64,000 nucleotides of DNA, taken from NCBI GenBank assembly GCA_029245345.1, contig JAQWPM010000012.1:248001-312000 (forward strand), written 5' to 3'. A model generated the notes under the pieces. That model did not search any database, was not told the origin of the DNA, and worked only from the letters and a program-made list of their open reading frames with translations. The translations under genes and the position numbers were made by a program. Every line of letters starts with the position of its first letter. Position 1 is the first letter of the stretch. Of the stretch, positions 28,063 through 38,245 are shown in pieces. Source of the DNA: Longimicrobiales bacterium (GTDB lineage: Bacteria; Gemmatimonadota; Gemmatimonadetes; Longimicrobiales; Gaopeijiaceae).

Positions 28063-28608
28063 TCACCGAAGGGCTTCAAACACTCCGGTGTCGTGGTTCT
28101 TTCGGACGTTGTCCCAGTCGAAAACCCGACCGTTCATGGCCACGTACACTCCGGGCGGAAGTACCTGTGAGACGGACAACGCCCCGCCAAGGTTGAACAG
28201 GCCATCCGAGGAACCGAACGCGATCGGGATCATCGCCCCGGTGAGAACGATGGTCTTGTCCCGCACTCGCTCAGCCAGGATGCGCGCGGTATCCACCATG
28301 GTGTCTGTGCCATGAGTGATGACGATGTGGGGCTCGGGAGCATCTGAGCAGCTGCTCGCGATGAGGTCGCGATCGGCGTCTGTCATGTCGAGCGAGTCGA
28401 CCAGCATCAGCGTCCGGACCTTCACGTCCAGGCGACTCCGACCCAGCTCGAGCATCTGCTTCAGATGCGTACCACGGAAGTCGAGTGTGCCGTGAAGCTC
28501 ATCGTACTCCTTGTCGAACGTCCCGCCGGTTACAAACAACCGAATGGGTCCGAGCCTACGGCTCCGAGAAGCCTGATCGGCCCCGACTTCGTCGTTCCCG
28601 TGTGCCAC
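28063..28608 (-). CDS. Single-domain asparaginase-like protein
   Basis: 181 residues from GTG 28608. Contains the first catalytic motif FVTGGTFDKEYDEL, the second HGTDTMVDTA and LTGAMIPIAFG of L-asparaginases, but stops after this N-terminal domain (family enzymes have about 330 residues and a second domain that completes the active site). Short asparaginase-domain proteins of this size occur in many bacteria, so it is not necessarily broken. It may hydrolyse an amide or act on another small molecule. Confidence 0.85.
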   Translation of the reverse strand: MAHGNDEVGADQASRSRRLGPIRLFVTGGTFDKEYDELHGTLDFRGTHLKQMLELGRSRLDVKVRTLMLVDSLDMTDADRDLIASSCSDAPEPHIVITHGTDTMVDTARILAERVRDKTIVLTGAMIPIAFGSSDGLFNLGGALSVSQVLPPGVYVAMNGRVFDWDNVRKNHDTGVFEALR

Positions 28609-30136: not shown

Positions 30137-31138
30137 TTACTTCGGCGCGTCCGGCACTGCCTCCAACATCTCTTTGGCAACGTCCTCGGCAGACCGCATG
30201 GTCGACATGTCGAGCTCAAAGTCCGGCCGCCCGGGCGTCTTGAGCTTCTCGATGAGTTCGTGGGCTTCCCGGCCGGACAGGCCCGCTTCTGCTAGCTGTT
30301 CAGCGCTCAGGTGGGCACCCGACTTCGCTGCGAGTCCGTCGTCACTCGCCTCGACGAGTTGAGATAACGCGGCGAGCTCTCCGCGGCTCATGGGCTGTCC
30401 AACCAAGTCGTAGTCGACCCAAGCCTCGTAGGACAATGGGGCCACACGTTTCACCATTCCGGCAATAATCTGGGCGAAGACCTGGATCTCCCATTGAGCA
30501 TGGGGATCGGCCCGGAGCGACAAGAAGTGCAGCAGGTTGTGTAAGTCGATCTTCCAATACCACTGGGTATAGGTCGAAAGCGGAAGATCAATCCGAGCGA
30601 CCTCGCGAGCGACGTCCTCACCGACCATCCACGTGTACCCACCCGCAGCGTCCTCTCTGAGCCGGTCCCAACGCTGGACCGCTTCCTGATACAGTTCGTC
30701 GGATGCGTCCGCGTCACGGCCCTGATTGTTCTCCTTACTCTGAAGCGCAAAGTGCTCGCGCTCCGGCATGTAGAAGAGAAGCGGCATCAGACTGTATCGC
30801 CCGCTGTACTCGTTCACGGAAGCCGTGCGGTGCCGGATCCACTGACGCGCCACGAACATCGGCATCGCACAATGGAACTTGAACTCGACCATCTCAGAGG
30901 GCGTCGTGTGCCGATGCCGGCGTAGATACCGGATCAGGCCTCGGGTCGCGGACACCTTCCGGGTGCCATATCCGTAGCTGACGCGCGCTGCCCGCTCTAC
31001 GTCTTCGTCTGATCCCATGTAGTCGACCAGCGAGACGAATCCGTGATCGAGCGCGGGAAAATAGCCACCGAGGATTTCCTCAGCTGCTGGGCTTGTGGGC
31101 CTCTTCGTTTCCATGCCATCATGTGCGTTAGGGTGCAT
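30137..31138 (-). CDS. thyX: FAD-dependent thymidylate synthase
   Basis: 333 residues from ATG 31138 (ATG 31114 also possible; neither has a clear ribosome site). ThyX motif RHRTASVNEYSGRYS at residues 102-116 is complete. Makes dTMP from dUMP using methylene-tetrahydrofolate and NADPH, replacing ThyA. The protein is longer than the usual 220-260 residues; the C-terminal 80 residues after VDYDLVGQ are an added helical tail (SREAHELIEKLK..) seen in some lineages. Confidence 0.95.
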   Translation of the reverse strand: MHPNAHDGMETKRPTSPAAEEILGGYFPALDHGFVSLVDYMGSDEDVERAARVSYGYGTRKVSATRGLIRYLRRHRHTTPSEMVEFKFHCAMPMFVARQWIRHRTASVNEYSGRYSLMPLLFYMPEREHFALQSKENNQGRDADASDELYQEAVQRWDRLREDAAGGYTWMVGEDVAREVARIDLPLSTYTQWYWKIDLHNLLHFLSLRADPHAQWEIQVFAQIIAGMVKRVAPLSYEAWVDYDLVGQPMSRGELAALSQLVEASDDGLAAKSGAHLSAEQLAEAGLSGREAHELIEKLKTPGRPDFELDMSTMRSAEDVAKEMLEAVPDAPK

Positions 31139-31435: not shown

Positions 31436-34408
31436 ATGCAGACTGAGCCGTCCATTCGAACTCGCCTCACCCTATTGGTGAGGGGTGTAGCCCTGCCCCT
31501 CGTGTTCCTTGCTGGCTATACAATTTGGACCGAGTTCAATTCGAATCTAGATGAAGCGAAAGGCCAAACGGACCAATTCGCACGGTCCACCGCGGCCGCA
31601 GTTCAACAATACGTTCACGGCGTGGTCGAGATCGCGGGCGAACTCGTCGCGAATCCCGAAGTGCGAGCGCTCGACCCTGAGCAATGCCTCGCGGCGTTGA
31701 CCCCGGTCGTGGAAGCCCTTCCGCACGTGACCAATCTGGTCGTGAACCGGGTCAACGGGCCTCTCGTGTGTTCGGCGGTGCCTCTTCCGGACGACCTCAG
31801 TCAGGACAACTCGGACCGTCCCTGGGTACAGGCAGCGATCGAATCGGGCACCTACACTATCGCCGCACCCGCCCCGGGGCCGATTTCCCCGTTCCTGCTC
31901 ACTTCTATCACGGTTCCGATTCGTGGCGACGAAGATGAGATCACCGGCACCCTAAGCGTCCCACTGGGGATCGCCCATCTTCAGGCACTCGTGGAGATTC
32001 CGTTGCCTGAGGGAGCCCTGCTGACGATTACAGATACTACGTACACGGTCATCGCCCGGTCCATCGACCCAGAGGAGTGGGTCAGCAGAAAGCTCCCCCT
32101 CGACGACCCGGACGAGCGCTCGGACATCTCCCTACTCACTGGCTACAACACGACCGAAAGCGCCGACGGTGTGCGCCGCCTCTTCGGGTATACAGCGATC
32201 GAAGGAACTCCCTGGATCGTGTGGGCCGGTCTCCCGACGTCCATCATCTACGGCCCCACGATCTCGGGCCTGTATCCGAAGCTGGGCCTGGCCGCGCTCA
32301 CGCTGATGTTCGTGTTCGTCTTCGCGCGCATCATCAACCGGCAAATCCAAACCTCGCTCTCTGGACTAAGCGAGCAGATGAAGGCGGTCGAACCCAGTCT
32401 GGATGCCGTCCTGACGGAGTCGGGCCCGTCTGAAATCGCCGACGTAGCACGGCAATACAACGCCCTCCTCCAAGGCAGGCGGCGAGCGGAGGCGCACGCC
32501 GCTGCAAGCGCCGACCTCAGCGTCTTGGTCATGCGTTCGACCAACGACGCTTTTTGGGATTGGGACTTGGGCACCAATCAGATCGAATGCAACCCACGCT
32601 TCTTCGAGATGTTCGGAGGCGTCGCTTCCCAGCCCGAGGAGGCGATGGTGTTCTGGGCGAACCGAGTGCACCCGGAAGACATAGAGCAGGTGCGTGCCCG
32701 CATAGAGGAGGCCCTCGCATCCAAAACCGAGCACTGGACATCTGCGTACCGAATGCGCCGTGCAGATGGCGAATGGGCCGAAATCTCCGACCGCTGTTAC
32801 GTGGTAAACGATCCGGACGGAGCACCTGTGCGGTTGGTCGGAGAGATTATGGACGTGACCGAAGCTCGTTCCGCGCAGCGCCAAATAGAGAAGGTCAAAG
32901 AGCGGTATCAGTCCATTTTACAAAATGCCGCATTCGGCATTTATGTCGCCTCGATGGACGGACAGATACTCGATACGAATCCAGCCTTCCTAAAGCTGCT
33001 CGGCGCTGACAAGGCCACTGCCCTGACTTGGACCGACCGCGATTTCTATGTGGAGCCGGCCGACCGAGACCGCCACGTAGAGAGGTCCCTCACCGGCGGT
33101 GCATCCCACCCGATTGAGACTCAGTGGCAGACGCCGAATGGCAGGCGCCTCTATATGCGTTTGTTCATCAGCAGCTTCGTCGAAGCCAGTGGCGACATCG
33201 CCATCGAGGTCATAGCCGAAGATCTCACGGAACGCCGCCGACTCGATGGGCAATTCAGGAAAGCCCAGAGAATGGAAGCTATGGGGCAAGTGGCTGGGGG
33301 CGTCGCGCACGACTTCAATAACCGCCTCACGGTGATTCAAGGGCGTGGAGAAATGATCCGCAGCGAGGTTGAGCACGACCCCGACCTCACGGAAGGCATC
33401 AATGCGATTCTCGAGTCGGCAGCGCGCGCCGCAGAACTGACACGTGGCCTCTTGGCCGTCAGTCGAAAGCAGATGTACCGGCCTCAGGTCATCTCCCTCA
33501 ATGAGTTGGTCGACACGCTCAACCCTGGGCTCAAAACGATCTTAGGGGAGCGATTTGCGCTCGAGGTGTCACAAGAGGACGAACTCCCGTCCGTTTCGGC
33601 AGATCCGGGCCATCTGCAACAGGTCTTGGAAAACCTGATCGTGAACGCCAGGGACGCGCAGACGGATGGAGGAACGGTGTTCCTCAAGACGTCCGCCCGG
33701 AGCGTATCCGTGGATGAGGCCTCTGAAGTCCCAGGACTGCGAGCCGGGTCCTACGTGGCTCTCTCCATCACGGACCAGGGGCCCGGAATCCCCCCCGAGG
33801 TGTTGAACCGAGTCTTCGAGCCCTTCTTTACGACCAAACCGATGGGGATCGGAACAGGGATGGGCCTTGCTGCGGTCTACGGTCTAGCGAAACAGAACGA
33901 CGCATTCGTTTCGATCGACACGGAACTCGGTCGTGGCACCACGGTCACCCTTCTCGTGCCAGAAGAGGGAAGTGATCCCATCAAGGTCGGAGCGATCGGA
34001 CAGACGGAGGTCCCCCGCGGGGACGGCTCCCGCGTCCTCGTGGTCGAAGACGAGGAAGGCGTCCGGGTCGTCGTGGTCAGAACCCTCCAGGTGCTAGGGT
34101 ATGACGTCCTCGAGACCGAAAATGCAGACGCAGCCCTCGACCTTCCAGACGAGGCGCTGGCGTCTCTCTCGGCGCTGGTCACCGATGTGATTATGCCCGG
34201 TATGCAAGGACCGGAACTCGCTGACGCATTACGTCTCCGCTTCCCGGACCTTCCGACCCTGTTCATCTCCGGATATCAGGATCAATCGGGGGCGTTCGAC
34301 TTCGAACCGGGATCGGGGCTGGCCTTTTTGGCCAAACCATTCACGCCACAGGAGCTGGGCTTTGCGTTGGCCGACCTCCTACGCAGTCTACCCGTCTCCT
34401 CAGACTAG
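31436..34408 (+). CDS. Hybrid sensor histidine kinase with Cache and PAS domains
   Basis: 990 residues. N-terminal membrane segment (about 14-32), extracytoplasmic dCache-like sensor (about 35-275), second membrane segment (ALTLMFVFVFARII), HAMP-like linker, PAS domains at about 365-480 (FWDWDLGTNQIECNPRFFEMFG) and 490-600 (NAAFGIYVASMDGQILDTN), dimerisation domain with phospho-His625 (GGVAHDFNNRLTVIQG), HATPase (NARDAQ, DQGPGIP, GIGTGMGLAAVYG), and a receiver at about 865-985 with Asp917 (LVTDVIMPGMQGPE). Sensor of an outside signal with an internal receiver; the output partner is not in the window. Its stop shares CTAG with the convergent selenoprotein gene. Confidence 0.93.
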   Translation: MQTEPSIRTRLTLLVRGVALPLVFLAGYTIWTEFNSNLDEAKGQTDQFARSTAAAVQQYVHGVVEIAGELVANPEVRALDPEQCLAALTPVVEALPHVTNLVVNRVNGPLVCSAVPLPDDLSQDNSDRPWVQAAIESGTYTIAAPAPGPISPFLLTSITVPIRGDEDEITGTLSVPLGIAHLQALVEIPLPEGALLTITDTTYTVIARSIDPEEWVSRKLPLDDPDERSDISLLTGYNTTESADGVRRLFGYTAIEGTPWIVWAGLPTSIIYGPTISGLYPKLGLAALTLMFVFVFARIINRQIQTSLSGLSEQMKAVEPSLDAVLTESGPSEIADVARQYNALLQGRRRAEAHAAASADLSVLVMRSTNDAFWDWDLGTNQIECNPRFFEMFGGVASQPEEAMVFWANRVHPEDIEQVRARIEEALASKTEHWTSAYRMRRADGEWAEISDRCYVVNDPDGAPVRLVGEIMDVTEARSAQRQIEKVKERYQSILQNAAFGIYVASMDGQILDTNPAFLKLLGADKATALTWTDRDFYVEPADRDRHVERSLTGGASHPIETQWQTPNGRRLYMRLFISSFVEASGDIAIEVIAEDLTERRRLDGQFRKAQRMEAMGQVAGGVAHDFNNRLTVIQGRGEMIRSEVEHDPDLTEGINAILESAARAAELTRGLLAVSRKQMYRPQVISLNELVDTLNPGLKTILGERFALEVSQEDELPSVSADPGHLQQVLENLIVNARDAQTDGGTVFLKTSARSVSVDEASEVPGLRAGSYVALSITDQGPGIPPEVLNRVFEPFFTTKPMGIGTGMGLAAVYGLAKQNDAFVSIDTELGRGTTVTLLVPEEGSDPIKVGAIGQTEVPRGDGSRVLVVEDEEGVRVVVVRTLQVLGYDVLETENADAALDLPDEALASLSALVTDVIMPGMQGPELADALRLRFPDLPTLFISGYQDQSGAFDFEPGSGLAFLAKPFTPQELGFALADLLRSLPVSSD

Positions 34409-35001
34409 TTCGCAGCACCGGCGTCGAGTCCCCAGGGACGGACGAAGTCCTCGGGCTCCACTCCCAGAGCGTCCGCTATCCGCGTGATGTAGTTGAAATA
34501 TCCGATCACCTGAGTCGCGTCATGGATCGCACAGTCGTCAAATCCGTGTGACCTCAGCACATCGAGGTCTTCCGGACCCACACCGTTTTGGTCGTGCGTG
34601 AGTTTTACCGCGTAGGCACATAACGCTTGATCCGCCTCACTCAAGTCGGCCTCTCGCCAATCGCGCGCGATCGCGTGAACGAAGTCGTCCCTCTCGTTGT
34701 CACTCCTAAACAGCTCCGTGACCTCTTCCCGGAGGTCGTGCGCGTGCGCCTGAGTTCAGTAGAAGCAGTCGTTCGTCCTCGAGGTGACGACCGCCAACAT
34801 CTCCCTCCTCCATCGGGTCAGGGGCGAACGCCCGAACATAATGGCGGCGTAAAACTTCATCGAAGAATCCATCGCTCGGGGGTTCAGGCTCATGATATGC
34901 ACGATGTGCCATATCCGACCTGCTCGCTCGAGCGCTTCGTCGAAGAGTTTCTTGAGGAGACCGGTGGCCTCCCCGACGGGGATCTGTTTGATATGAGGCA
35001 T
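34405..35001 (-). CDS. AhpD-like (carboxymuconolactone decarboxylase family) selenoprotein, in-frame UGA as Sec
   Basis: From ATG 35001 the frame runs MPHIKQIPVGEATGLL..REMLAVVTSRTNDCFY, meets TGA at 34758-34756, and continues in the same frame for 116 codons (TQAHAHDLREEVTELF ... RPWGLDAGAAN) to TAG at 34405. Read through, the product is 198 residues and matches peroxidase-related AhpD-like proteins. Their redox centre is Cys-x-x-Cys-x-x-x-His; here it is C-F-Y-(TGA)-T-Q-A-H, so the TGA replaces exactly the second, attacking Cys. CxxU versions of AhpD-like proteins are known bacterial selenoproteins. A SECIS-like hairpin follows. No other stop or frameshift is present. Likely role: peroxide or disulfide reduction. 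The alternative is a single nonsense change TGC/TGT to TGA. Confidence 0.82.
34720..34737 (-). promoter_or_regulatory. Candidate bacterial SECIS element
   Basis: On the coding strand the bases 25-30 after the TGA form loop CGGGAA between GACCTC (34737-34732) and GAGGTC (34725-34720), a perfect 6-bp stem. The UGA-to-loop distance of 24 nt lies in the 16-37 nt range and a G occurs in the first two loop bases, the known requirements for SelB-recognised elements. Confidence 0.7.
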
Positions 35002-35087
35002 GACGGAATCTAGGTCGGAGATCGCCGAGTGAACCACATCGGCCTTCTTCTCGTAGTAGTAAGCTAGACACCAGGAGGAGGTCACCC

Positions 35088-35297
35088 GTGGGTCAGTGCC
35101 AGGGAAAGACAAAGAAGGGCGACCAGTGCCGTCGTGACGCGAAGGGCGACACTTCGTTTTGCTCCATCCATCAGGACCAAGAGGTGCGCGAGCGCTTCCC
35201 ACCCAACAGTGAAGAGTGGGATCATGATTCCATAATGAAGGCGGCAATCGGGTTCGCCTTGGTCGGGGCGGTCCTCTTTTTCCGCTTCCGCCGCTAG
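35088..35297 (+). CDS. Small Cys/His-motif protein with C-terminal membrane segment
   Basis: 69 residues from GTG 35088, seven bases behind AGGAGGAG (35073-35080), a strong site. N-terminal CQGKTKKGDQCRRDAKGDTS then FCSIH fits the widespread small zinc-like motif C-x9-C-x10-C-x2-H. The C-terminus has one membrane segment (AAIGFALVGAVLFF) and ends RFRR. Role unknown. Divergent from the selenoprotein gene with 86 nt between starts. Confidence 0.75.
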   Translation: MGQCQGKTKKGDQCRRDAKGDTSFCSIHQDQEVRERFPPNSEEWDHDSIMKAAIGFALVGAVLFFRFRR

Positions 35298-35321
35298 CAT
35301 CTACGGGGACAGAATTCAGGG

Positions 35322-35353
35322 CGGCCGCCGCGATTTGTAGCGGCGGTCCTTTT
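35322..35353 (+). terminator. Probable intrinsic terminator
   Basis: Arms 35324-35331 and 35340-35347 (GCCGCCGC / GCGGCGGT) pair over eight positions with an 8-base loop, then CCTTTTCC. It is 25 nt behind the small protein gene at 35088-35297. Confidence 0.6.
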
Positions 35354-35472
35354 CCGTCCCCCCCTTTTAGGTTGGCGAGGTTGCGCACACCCGCCGCCGA
35401 GAGTCCAATTGCGAGGGCTGGCAGCGGCCAGTCAGCGGAAACTCACTACACCACGACCCGGAGCACCCCTCG

Positions 35473-36972
35473 GTGACACCGTCATTGTTCGAGCGCGCGG
35501 AGACGTTCCGCGACCGAACCGCCATCATCGCCCCCGAAGGCGTTTTTACGTACGGCAATCTTTTGGACGTCTCGGCGACGGTGGCAACTCGACTGCTCGC
35601 CGGACGGGACGATCTAGAGGAAACTCGCGTTTGTTTCTTGGTTCCACCGAGTTGGGAGCACATCGTGACCCAATGGGGAATCTTGCGCGCAGGTGGCCTC
35701 GCGGTGCCCATGGCGATCTCGCATCCGTCGACCGAACTGGACTATGTCCTCGGTGACGCAGAGCCCGAAGCCCTTGTCGCCCATCCGAAGCTGTTAGACC
35801 GCATCAACATTGCGGCCGATCGTCGGGCCATCCCGGTCCTACAGACGCCCGCGCTCGTCGCCGATGGACCGGTGGGCGAGTTGCCTACCCTTCTGCCGGC
35901 TCGACCGGCCATCATGTTGTATACGTCAGGCACCACCGGCCGGCCAAAGGGTGTCGTGATCTCCCACGGCAACGTCTCCGCGCAGGTGACAGCCCTGTCG
36001 GAAGCTTGGGCGTGGAACCCTGACGACCACATCCTGCTTCACCTGCCGCTTCATCACGTCCATGGCATCGTCAACATCCTGACGTCTGCCCTGTGGAACG
36101 GCGCTCTGTGCGAGATACTCCCGCGTTTCAACCCAGTCGACGTGTGGGAGCGCCTGTCCCGGTGTGATGTCACCCTCTACATGGCTGTGCCCACCATCTA
36201 CCGACGTCTGATCGAAGCCTGGGAGGACGCAGACGCACCGACACGTGAGGCGTGGAGTGCCGGGGCCAAGTCATGCCGCCTGATGATCTCCGGATCGGCG
36301 GCACTTCCCGTTCCGACACTGGAACGTTGGGAAGAGATCACCGGCCAGAGACTCCTGGAACGATACGGGATGACGGAAATCGGCATGGGCCTCTCTAACC
36401 CTCTGGAAGGAGAGCGCCGTCCGGGTCATGTCGGTCACCCGCTGCCGGGGATCGAGGTTCGCTTGGTGGACGACAACGACCAGCCGGTATCGGGCGATTC
36501 TGCAGGACGAATTCAAGTCCGTGGCCCCGCTGTCTTCGCCGAATACTGGAGACGAGAAGAAGAGACAGCGGCCTCCTTTACCGACGACGGATGGTTCCGC
36601 ACCGGCGACCAGGCGGCCATCTCGGATGGGGCATACCGGATCCTCGGCCGGTCCAGCGTGGACATTTTAAAGACCGGTGGAGAGAAGATCTCCGCCCTCG
36701 AGATCGAGGACGTCCTGAGAACCCATCCTGCTGTGGCCGACTGCGCCGTGGTCGGCGTCCCCGACTCGGACTGGGGGGACCGAGTGTGCGCAGCCGTGGT
36801 CCGGAACCCCTCCAGCGCCTTTGACTCCGAGAAATTGAGAGCTTACGCGAAGGAGCGCTTGGCGCCCTACAAGGTGCCCAAGGACATTCTCCTCGTGGAC
36901 GACCTGCCCCGGAATGCGATGGGCAAGGTCACCAAGCCGGCGATCCAAGAGCTGTTCGTTCAGCATGGCTAG
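35473..36972 (+). CDS. MatB/ACSF3-like acyl-CoA (malonyl-CoA) synthetase
   Basis: 499 residues from GTG 35473. AMP-forming ligase: YTSGTTGRPKGVVISH P-loop, LPLHHVHGIVNIL, RYGMTEIGMGLSNPLEGERR (subgroup pattern of malonyl/methylmalonyl-CoA synthetases), GWFRTGDQA, and catalytic Lys in RNAMGKVTK. Activates a carboxylic acid, probably malonate or methylmalonate, to its CoA ester with ATP. The start of the MFS gene overlaps its end by 8 nt, and a symporter follows, so uptake and activation are probably coupled. Confidence 0.87.
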   Translation: MTPSLFERAETFRDRTAIIAPEGVFTYGNLLDVSATVATRLLAGRDDLEETRVCFLVPPSWEHIVTQWGILRAGGLAVPMAISHPSTELDYVLGDAEPEALVAHPKLLDRINIAADRRAIPVLQTPALVADGPVGELPTLLPARPAIMLYTSGTTGRPKGVVISHGNVSAQVTALSEAWAWNPDDHILLHLPLHHVHGIVNILTSALWNGALCEILPRFNPVDVWERLSRCDVTLYMAVPTIYRRLIEAWEDADAPTREAWSAGAKSCRLMISGSAALPVPTLERWEEITGQRLLERYGMTEIGMGLSNPLEGERRPGHVGHPLPGIEVRLVDDNDQPVSGDSAGRIQVRGPAVFAEYWRREEETAASFTDDGWFRTGDQAAISDGAYRILGRSSVDILKTGGEKISALEIEDVLRTHPAVADCAVVGVPDSDWGDRVCAAVVRNPSSAFDSEKLRAYAKERLAPYKVPKDILLVDDLPRNAMGKVTKPAIQELFVQHG

Positions 36973-38245
36973 TGCTCGCCCAATTCGTCTGGGCCTGAGG
37001 GAAAACCTCCCGCAATTCACACTCCTGGTGGGTGTCAACGCGCTTGTCGGCGGGATGATCGGTCAGGAGCGCACGGTCCTCCCGCTTCTCGCGGAACAGG
37101 ACTTCGGTATCACCGCGATGACCGCCACGCTGACCTTCATCATGGCGTTCGGAGTCGTGAAGGCCGCAGCCAATTTCGTGGCAGGGGCACTCGCCGACCG
37201 GTTCGGGCGCAAGCCGATCCTGCTTGCAGGGTGGTTATTCGGCCTGCCGGTGCCGCTTCTCCTGATCTACGCCCAGAGTTGGAACTGGGTCATTTTGGCG
37301 AACGTGCTTCTGGGTGTGAACCAAGGTCTGTCGTGGTCCGCGACCGTGATCATGAAGATCGATCTGGCCGGGCCTAAACACCGTGGCACCGCAATGGGCC
37401 TCAACGAGGCCGCAGGCTACCTAGCGATCGCCGCGACAGCCCTCGCGACCGGTTACATCGCCGAGCAAGCGGGACTACGCCCGGCCCCGTTTTTCTTGGG
37501 GCTGGCCTTCGTCGGGCTTGGACTCGGGCTGTCTCTCTTTTTCGTGCGCGAAACCCAAGGGCATGCTGAGGCAGAGAGCCGCACGCGGGACACTTCAGAT
37601 GAGCCGCCCCCCCGGAGGCCCAGTCTGGGTGAGATCTTCACGCTGACCAGCTTCAAGGACCCTGCGCTCTCGTCATGCAGTCAGGCCGGCATGGTAAACA
37701 ACCTGAACGACGGCCTCGCGTGGGGACTCTTGCCGATCTACTTCGCGCGCAATGGACTGAACATCACAGAAATCGGGGTGCTCGCGGCGGCCTATCCCAC
37801 GGTCTGGGGCATGGGGCAAATCGTCACCGGTGCAATGTCGGACCGGCACGGACGAAAGCGCTTCATCGTGGCCGGAATGCTGACCCAGGCCGTGGCGATT
37901 GCGATGTTCGCAGGCCTCACCGGCATGGGCGCCTGGCTGAGCGCCGCGGTCTTGCTAGGACTCGGTACAGCCATGGTGTACCCGACGCTGCTGGCTGCGG
38001 TCGGCGACGTGGCGCACCCGTCATGGCGCGCGTCTTCCGTCGGGGTTTACCGTACCTGGCGGGATCTAGGCTTCGCGGCTGGCGCCTTGATAGCCGGAGG
38101 AATAGCCGACGCGACGTCGATCGAGACGGCGATCTGGGTTGTTGCAGGACTTACCGCGGTCTCGGGCCTGGTCGTAGCCATTCGGATGTACGAAACCCAT
38201 CTTCCCCACACGCCACCACACAAACACGTCCCGGAGTCCGGATGA
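36965..38245 (+). CDS. MFS transporter
   Basis: 426 residues from ATG 36965, inside the last codons of the synthetase gene. Twelve membrane segments; loop motif ADRFGRKPILLAGW between segments 2 and 3 and SDRHGRKRFIVAG between 8 and 9 are the MFS A-motifs. A central acidic loop (ETQGHAEAESRTRDTSDEPPPRR) joins the halves. Substrate unknown; the operon suggests an organic acid. Ends with ATGA overlap into the next gene. Confidence 0.92.
   Translation: MASARPIRLGLRENLPQFTLLVGVNALVGGMIGQERTVLPLLAEQDFGITAMTATLTFIMAFGVVKAAANFVAGALADRFGRKPILLAGWLFGLPVPLLLIYAQSWNWVILANVLLGVNQGLSWSATVIMKIDLAGPKHRGTAMGLNEAAGYLAIAATALATGYIAEQAGLRPAPFFLGLAFVGLGLGLSLFFVRETQGHAEAESRTRDTSDEPPPRRPSLGEIFTLTSFKDPALSSCSQAGMVNNLNDGLAWGLLPIYFARNGLNITEIGVLAAAYPTVWGMGQIVTGAMSDRHGRKRFIVAGMLTQAVAIAMFAGLTGMGAWLSAAVLLGLGTAMVYPTLLAAVGDVAHPSWRASSVGVYRTWRDLGFAAGALIAGGIADATSIETAIWVVAGLTAVSGLVVAIRMYETHLPHTPPHKHVPESG

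Follow-up and report, generated by a model that had tools for sequence, protein, structure and literature searches.

A probable AhpD-like selenoprotein with a CxxU redox centre and a predicted bacterial SECIS in a Gemmatimonadota genome

The window, that is, the whole stretch of DNA that was analysed (64,000 nucleotides), is part of a Gemmatimonadota draft assembly of 3.79 Mb, which is 98% complete with an estimated contamination of 3.7%. The gene under study lies on the minus strand, and its reading frame is interrupted by a single TGA at a position where related proteins carry a catalytic cysteine. The locus is composed of the following features:

30137-31138, minus strand: thyX (Thy1, 176.7 bits), beyond the kinase gene
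beyond the kinase gene: aldehyde dehydrogenase gene, from a Pfam scan of the flanking genes
31436-34408: hybrid histidine kinase gene, convergent with the predicted selenoprotein gene and downstream of it
34405-35001, minus strand: predicted AhpD-like selenoprotein gene, 198 codons plus TAG; TIGR01926, carboxymuconolactone decarboxylase (CMD) superfamily
34720-34737, minus strand: predicted bacterial SECIS hairpin, from conservation and published constraints
34744-34803, minus strand: active-site segment with Glu67, Cys79, Tyr81, Sec82 and His86, from alignment
34756-34758, minus strand: in-frame TGA (Sec) codon, residue 82, at the second position of the C-x-x-U-x-x-x-H centre
35088-35297, plus strand: small divergent ORF upstream, with a start, CQGKTKKGDQCRR...CSIH, that resembles a zinc knuckle, and with a hydrophobic stretch at the C-terminus
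35473-36972: AMP-binding ligase gene, beyond the small ORF on the upstream side

Translation of the minus strand begins with the ATG at 34999-35001 and ends with the TAG at 34405-34407; 81 codons precede the TGA and 116 follow it, no further stop and no frameshift occur, and the sequence around the TGA reads ...NDCFY-U-TQAHAHDL.... A preliminary description of this DNA had placed the gene at 34405-35001, leaving the strand unsaid, and had described it as one uninterrupted frame of 198 residues with a lone TGA; both the coordinates and the frame hold on the minus strand. A plus-strand reading of the same interval was rejected, its translation being nonsense. The same description had foreseen that standard gene calling would break the gene in two, and under the standard code two ORFs are indeed obtained, the first with its end at the TGA (35388..34756), the second 79 residues long (34644..34405). 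The stop codons of the gene and of the convergent kinase gene overlap in a CTAG palindrome (34405-34408). In a heuristic scan of the window for other Sec-type TGAs, which covered frames with high third-position G+C only, all candidates were in ordinary-stop-like contexts or in chance frames, and a scan upstream of the gene found no sigma-70 promoter.

With the TGA replaced by Cys, the product is assigned to TIGR01926 (‘peroxidase-related enzyme’) with a score of 125.7 bits (cut-off 81.8; E 1.6e-36) over residues 10-185, corresponding to positions 9-177 of the 178 in the profile; the match extends across the TGA, in agreement with the earlier statement that both halves of the gene are intact and family-like. 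The CMD domain, PF02627, is also above its cut-off (30.6 bits vs 23). Two proteins of solved structure, 2oyo (an uncharacterized peroxidase-related protein) and 6k40 (an alkyl hydroperoxide reductase AhpD), align over nearly the whole length and across the TGA; the order of their motifs is that of the window protein, and both have Cys where the latter has Sec (residue 82). Judged by the TIGR01926 homology, these PDB alignments and the column of homologues described below, the TGA-containing frame is more than a chance one. Membership of NF041238 (AhpD_rel_CFYUT) was rejected: the CFYUT motif is identical and the core domain related, but the score, 58.4 bits, falls short of the cut-off (175). 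This alkylhydroperoxidase-related (seleno)protein, ‘hypothetical protein 1’ of the Sargasso Sea set, is longer (357 positions), and the window protein covers just its C-terminal part.

The active-site pattern, E67-(11)-C79-F-Y81-U82-T-Q-A-H86, confirms the position originally assigned to the TGA, the second Cys of the Cys-x-x-Cys-x-x-x-His centre of the family. In Mycobacterium tuberculosis AhpD, the proton relay consists of Glu118, Cys130, His132, Cys133 and His137, and in the P. aeruginosa AhpD relative PA0269 of Glu36, Cys48, Tyr50, Cys51 and His55 (PMC3141380). Both proteins share the Glu-(11)-Cys-x-x-Cys/Sec-x3-His relay with the window protein, and PA0269 in addition the Tyr before the second Cys/Sec, whereas they differ from it in subfamily and chain length. 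Since the spacing is identical, Sec82 takes the place of Cys133/Cys51, and Tyr81 is found at the Tyr50 position; by alignment, the five residues correspond to the five that make up the proton relay in AhpD and PA0269.

Homology points to a peroxidase activity, which, following AhpD enzymology, could operate in the following manner: Glu67, a water molecule and His86 would deprotonate Sec82, and the resulting selenolate would attack a hydroperoxide. Cys79 would then resolve the selenenic acid, giving a Cys-Sec bridge, which a dithiol reductant would recharge. The alternative that survives best also assumes a genuine selenoprotein of this family and differs in the reaction alone, the rest of the two readings overlapping: the enzyme may be another thiol oxidoreductase, an isomerase or a decarboxylase of the CMD superfamily. 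Several activities are known within this superfamily, and most of the close relatives with solved structures carry the name ‘uncharacterized peroxidase-related’. Moreover, the H2O2 reductase activity of PA0269 is weak (PMC3141380), so that another thiol-redox role of the Sec protein is conceivable. Against a non-peroxidase stands the match at all five AhpD proton-relay positions, with Sec where AhpD has Cys133; we regard such a reaction as unlikely, if still to be reckoned with.

A bacterial SECIS after the UGA, for which the preliminary description had proposed a search, is predicted in the form of a hairpin consisting of the stem GACCUC (34737-34732), the loop CGGGAA (34731-34726) and the stem GAGGUC (34725-34720). 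The hairpin begins 18 nt 3' of the UGA and its loop starts at 24 nt; the 48 nt after the UGA fold with -12.6 kcal/mol. According to published constraints, a bacterial SECIS has a loop of 3-9 nt with a G within its first two positions, a stem of 4-16 bp, a spacing of 16-37 nt and a minimum free energy of at most -7.5 kcal/mol (PMC13188914). The predicted element agrees with all of these: the loop has 6 nt, with a G at the second base and another G thereafter, the stem has 6 bp, and the spacing is 24 nt. Taken alone, the window hairpin does not go beyond chance in comparison with dinucleotide shuffles (z -0.38), and 33% of synonymous-codon shuffles reach an equal model score (P 0.33). Sequence by sequence, the synonymous-codon shuffles are mostly not significant, because the D-L-R-x-E-V codons are themselves nearly self-complementary. 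Single-sequence folding, not being significant, was dropped as evidence for the SECIS, and the comparison of homologues was used instead. The six pairs are preserved in every one of the 29 distinct subfamily sequences, with a compensatory CG<->TA change in one pair only, and the stem codons are frozen, Leu90 as CTC and Glu93 as GAG in 38/38 each, whereas other conserved Leu codons of the gene have a codon entropy of 1.2-2.4 bits. Such codon freezing across species is stronger evidence than the single-sequence shuffles, and on this comparative basis the predicted SECIS is convincing across the subfamily. More distant Sec subfamilies have their hairpin at 16-17 nt, with a different G-rich loop; a comparable hairpin is absent from most Cys homologues, the exception by score being L038, with a 9-nt loop.

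The conservation of the hairpin also bears on the possibility that the locus gives rise to two products, an 81-residue protein that ends at the UGA and a separately started C-terminal protein, with read-through being minor or absent. The standard code does yield two ORFs, and termination at UGA competes with Sec insertion, chiefly under selenium shortage, which counts in favour of two products. However, the TGA lies inside both the family fold and the active site (E67, C79, U82, H86), the Cys homologues are single uninterrupted proteins, and conservation of the SECIS hairpin likewise speaks for read-through, leaving the two-product account very improbable.

To assemble homologues, 59 genomes (that of the window and those of its relatives) were used, together with a scan over genome contigs. 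Among the 61 that cover the column of residue 82 in the alignment, 55, including the window's own copy (L021), have TGA and six have Cys; the preliminary description had proposed to look for Sec or Cys at this column, and unrelated residues do not occur there. The six Cys homologues form one group in the tree, and E67, C79 and H86 are present in all 61. In comparisons with six of seven close relatives, pN/pS, the ratio of nonsynonymous to synonymous differences, is 0.12-0.26 before the TGA and 0.25-0.35 after it; for the seventh, the values are 0.48 and 0.23, respectively. By this measure, purifying selection acts on both sides of the TGA, and both evolve as protein.

These data decide on a further alternative, a pseudogene or a sequencing or assembly error, in which a mutation or a miscall would have turned the TGC or TGT of a Cys gene into TGA. 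In its favour, the assembly has draft status, and TGA is one base away from TGC/TGT. Yet independent assemblies from several phyla have the same TGA in the 55 homologues, which refutes the account in its general form, and the frame is otherwise free of stops and frameshifts. As selection at the protein level continues 3' of the TGA, both a pseudogene and an isolated sequencing error are excluded, and the explanation is scarcely credible.

Plasmid relatives were looked for, and none was found. The homologues L053, L054, L055, L061 and L062 come from assemblies labelled Gammaproteobacteria (or BD2-11, filed under Pseudomonadota), yet they fall inside the Gemmatimonadota clade. The L062 protein is identical to that of G012, a genome belonging to the same family as the window; together with the placement in the clade, this indicates that the public labels of those assemblies are probably wrong.

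The search for a Sec machinery, which the preliminary description had put forward as a check, recovered all of its components in the window genome: tRNA-Sec (selC; 65.1 bits vs a gathering score of 47), which ARAGORN also calls as tRNA-SeC with the anticodon TCA (UCA), SelA (548.8 bits), SelB (over the cut-off) and SelD (376.4 bits). The machinery genes are located on contigs other than that of the selenoprotein gene, which in a draft assembly with 3.7% estimated contamination counts against the reading, although the same linkage recurs across related genomes. A full-strength tRNA-Sec is found in 22 of the 24 genomes with a TGA-type homologue, as compared to one of the ten with stop-free homologues only (Fisher p ~1e-5; related genomes are non-independent, and the ten include distant stop-free homologues); the two TGA-type genomes without it are only 81-82% complete. 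The selD gene (L084; G000:C24:30597-31520, minus strand) holds an in-frame TGA of its own, at a ...SHGAGUACK... motif; with SelD itself a selenoprotein, selenophosphate synthesis in the window genome would depend on Sec insertion.

Reassignment of TGA throughout the genome, e.g. to Trp or Gly, would explain the one TGA read through in frame, but is refuted by window genes that end in TGA (MFS, 36914-38245; asparaginase-like, 28063-28608), by 38 of the 55 Sec-type homologues, in which the first stop past the Sec TGA is again TGA, normally at the expected gene end (within one mRNA, TGA then has two meanings, as SECIS-directed insertion predicts), by a column that holds Sec or Cys but never Trp or Gly, and by the presence of tRNA-Sec, SelA and SelB, so that its probability is negligible. 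Site-specific insertion of Sec, the preferred reading, would follow established bacterial Sec biology: SelB and Sec-tRNA-Sec would bind the hairpin and place Sec at codon 82, after which the ribosome would continue past the UGA to the TAG at 34405. An AhpD-like selenoprotein with a CxxU centre, as originally proposed, is supported by the family match, the conserved TGA column, the machinery and the hairpin; judged by its sequence, the gene very probably encodes a functional selenoprotein of the AhpD-like peroxidase-related family (TIGR01926, CMD superfamily).

In the neighbourhood, a Pfam search with the small ORF at 35088-35297 gave no match, and no ahpC is present among the flanking genes examined with Pfam. 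In 15 relative loci (L023, L024, L027, L051, L052, L057, L059, L063, L065-L070 and L075, some of which represent the same species from two collections), thyX lies directly 3' of the Sec gene on the same strand, at a gap of ~4-134 nt, and an aldehyde dehydrogenase gene is convergent beyond thyX in the relative loci with enough flank. In the window, as in the relative L022 of the same genus, it is a kinase gene, not thyX, that adjoins the Sec gene, and in the window it separates the pair. In other members of the subfamily thyX does not adjoin the Sec gene; the pair therefore belongs to one lineage. Adjacency of the two genes suggests an operon. The gene pair is observed, whereas a functional link is speculation: that the Sec-AhpD-like enzyme may be a dedicated partner of ThyX, for instance clearing peroxide produced from the ThyX flavin and O2, is improbable. 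The gene pair was not found in the literature, and a search for papers linking selenoproteins with ThyX gave one match, by its title and abstract an unrelated review.

A second Sec-type AhpD-like paralogue, 47% identical and with the motif CFYUINHHGAGLR, is encoded elsewhere in the window genome (L083; G000:C5:6229-6750, minus strand), where it adjoins a gene that, read by eye, resembles a histidine/phenylalanine ammonia-lyase. In the subfamily relatives of this paralogue, the SECIS-like hairpin is located 16 nt past the UGA, not 24 nt.

The selenoprotein family of which the window protein is a member has been known since 2005, and the kind of system is not new. AhpD-like CxxU selenoproteins (COG2128) were described in the Sargasso Sea data in 2005, with 27 sequences (PMC1088965), and as ‘AhpD-like 1’ in the GOS data in 2008, with 299 sequences (PMC2398784); a 2026 review lists TIGR01926 with CxxU (PMC13188914). 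These papers bear out the preliminary remark that Sec is known at this position in AhpD-like selenoproteins. The marine proteins and the window protein have in common TIGR01926, a CxxU with Sec second, a downstream bacterial SECIS and widespread Cys homologues. The former are mainly from marine metagenomes, whereas the latter is from a Gemmatimonadota genome with a second Sec-type paralogue; a difference of kind does not exist between them. No paper devoted to selenoproteins of Gemmatimonadota (Gemmatimonadetes) was found in a literature search of incomplete coverage.

While ideas on the use of selenocysteine are unchanged by this selenoprotein, it provides a clean example of one that is broken in two by standard annotation, and its practical value lies in a correct annotation and a defined candidate enzyme. 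Within Gemmatimonadota, a phylum scarcely mentioned in the selenoprotein literature searched, Sec decoding is common, as are AhpD-like enzymes of the Sec type.
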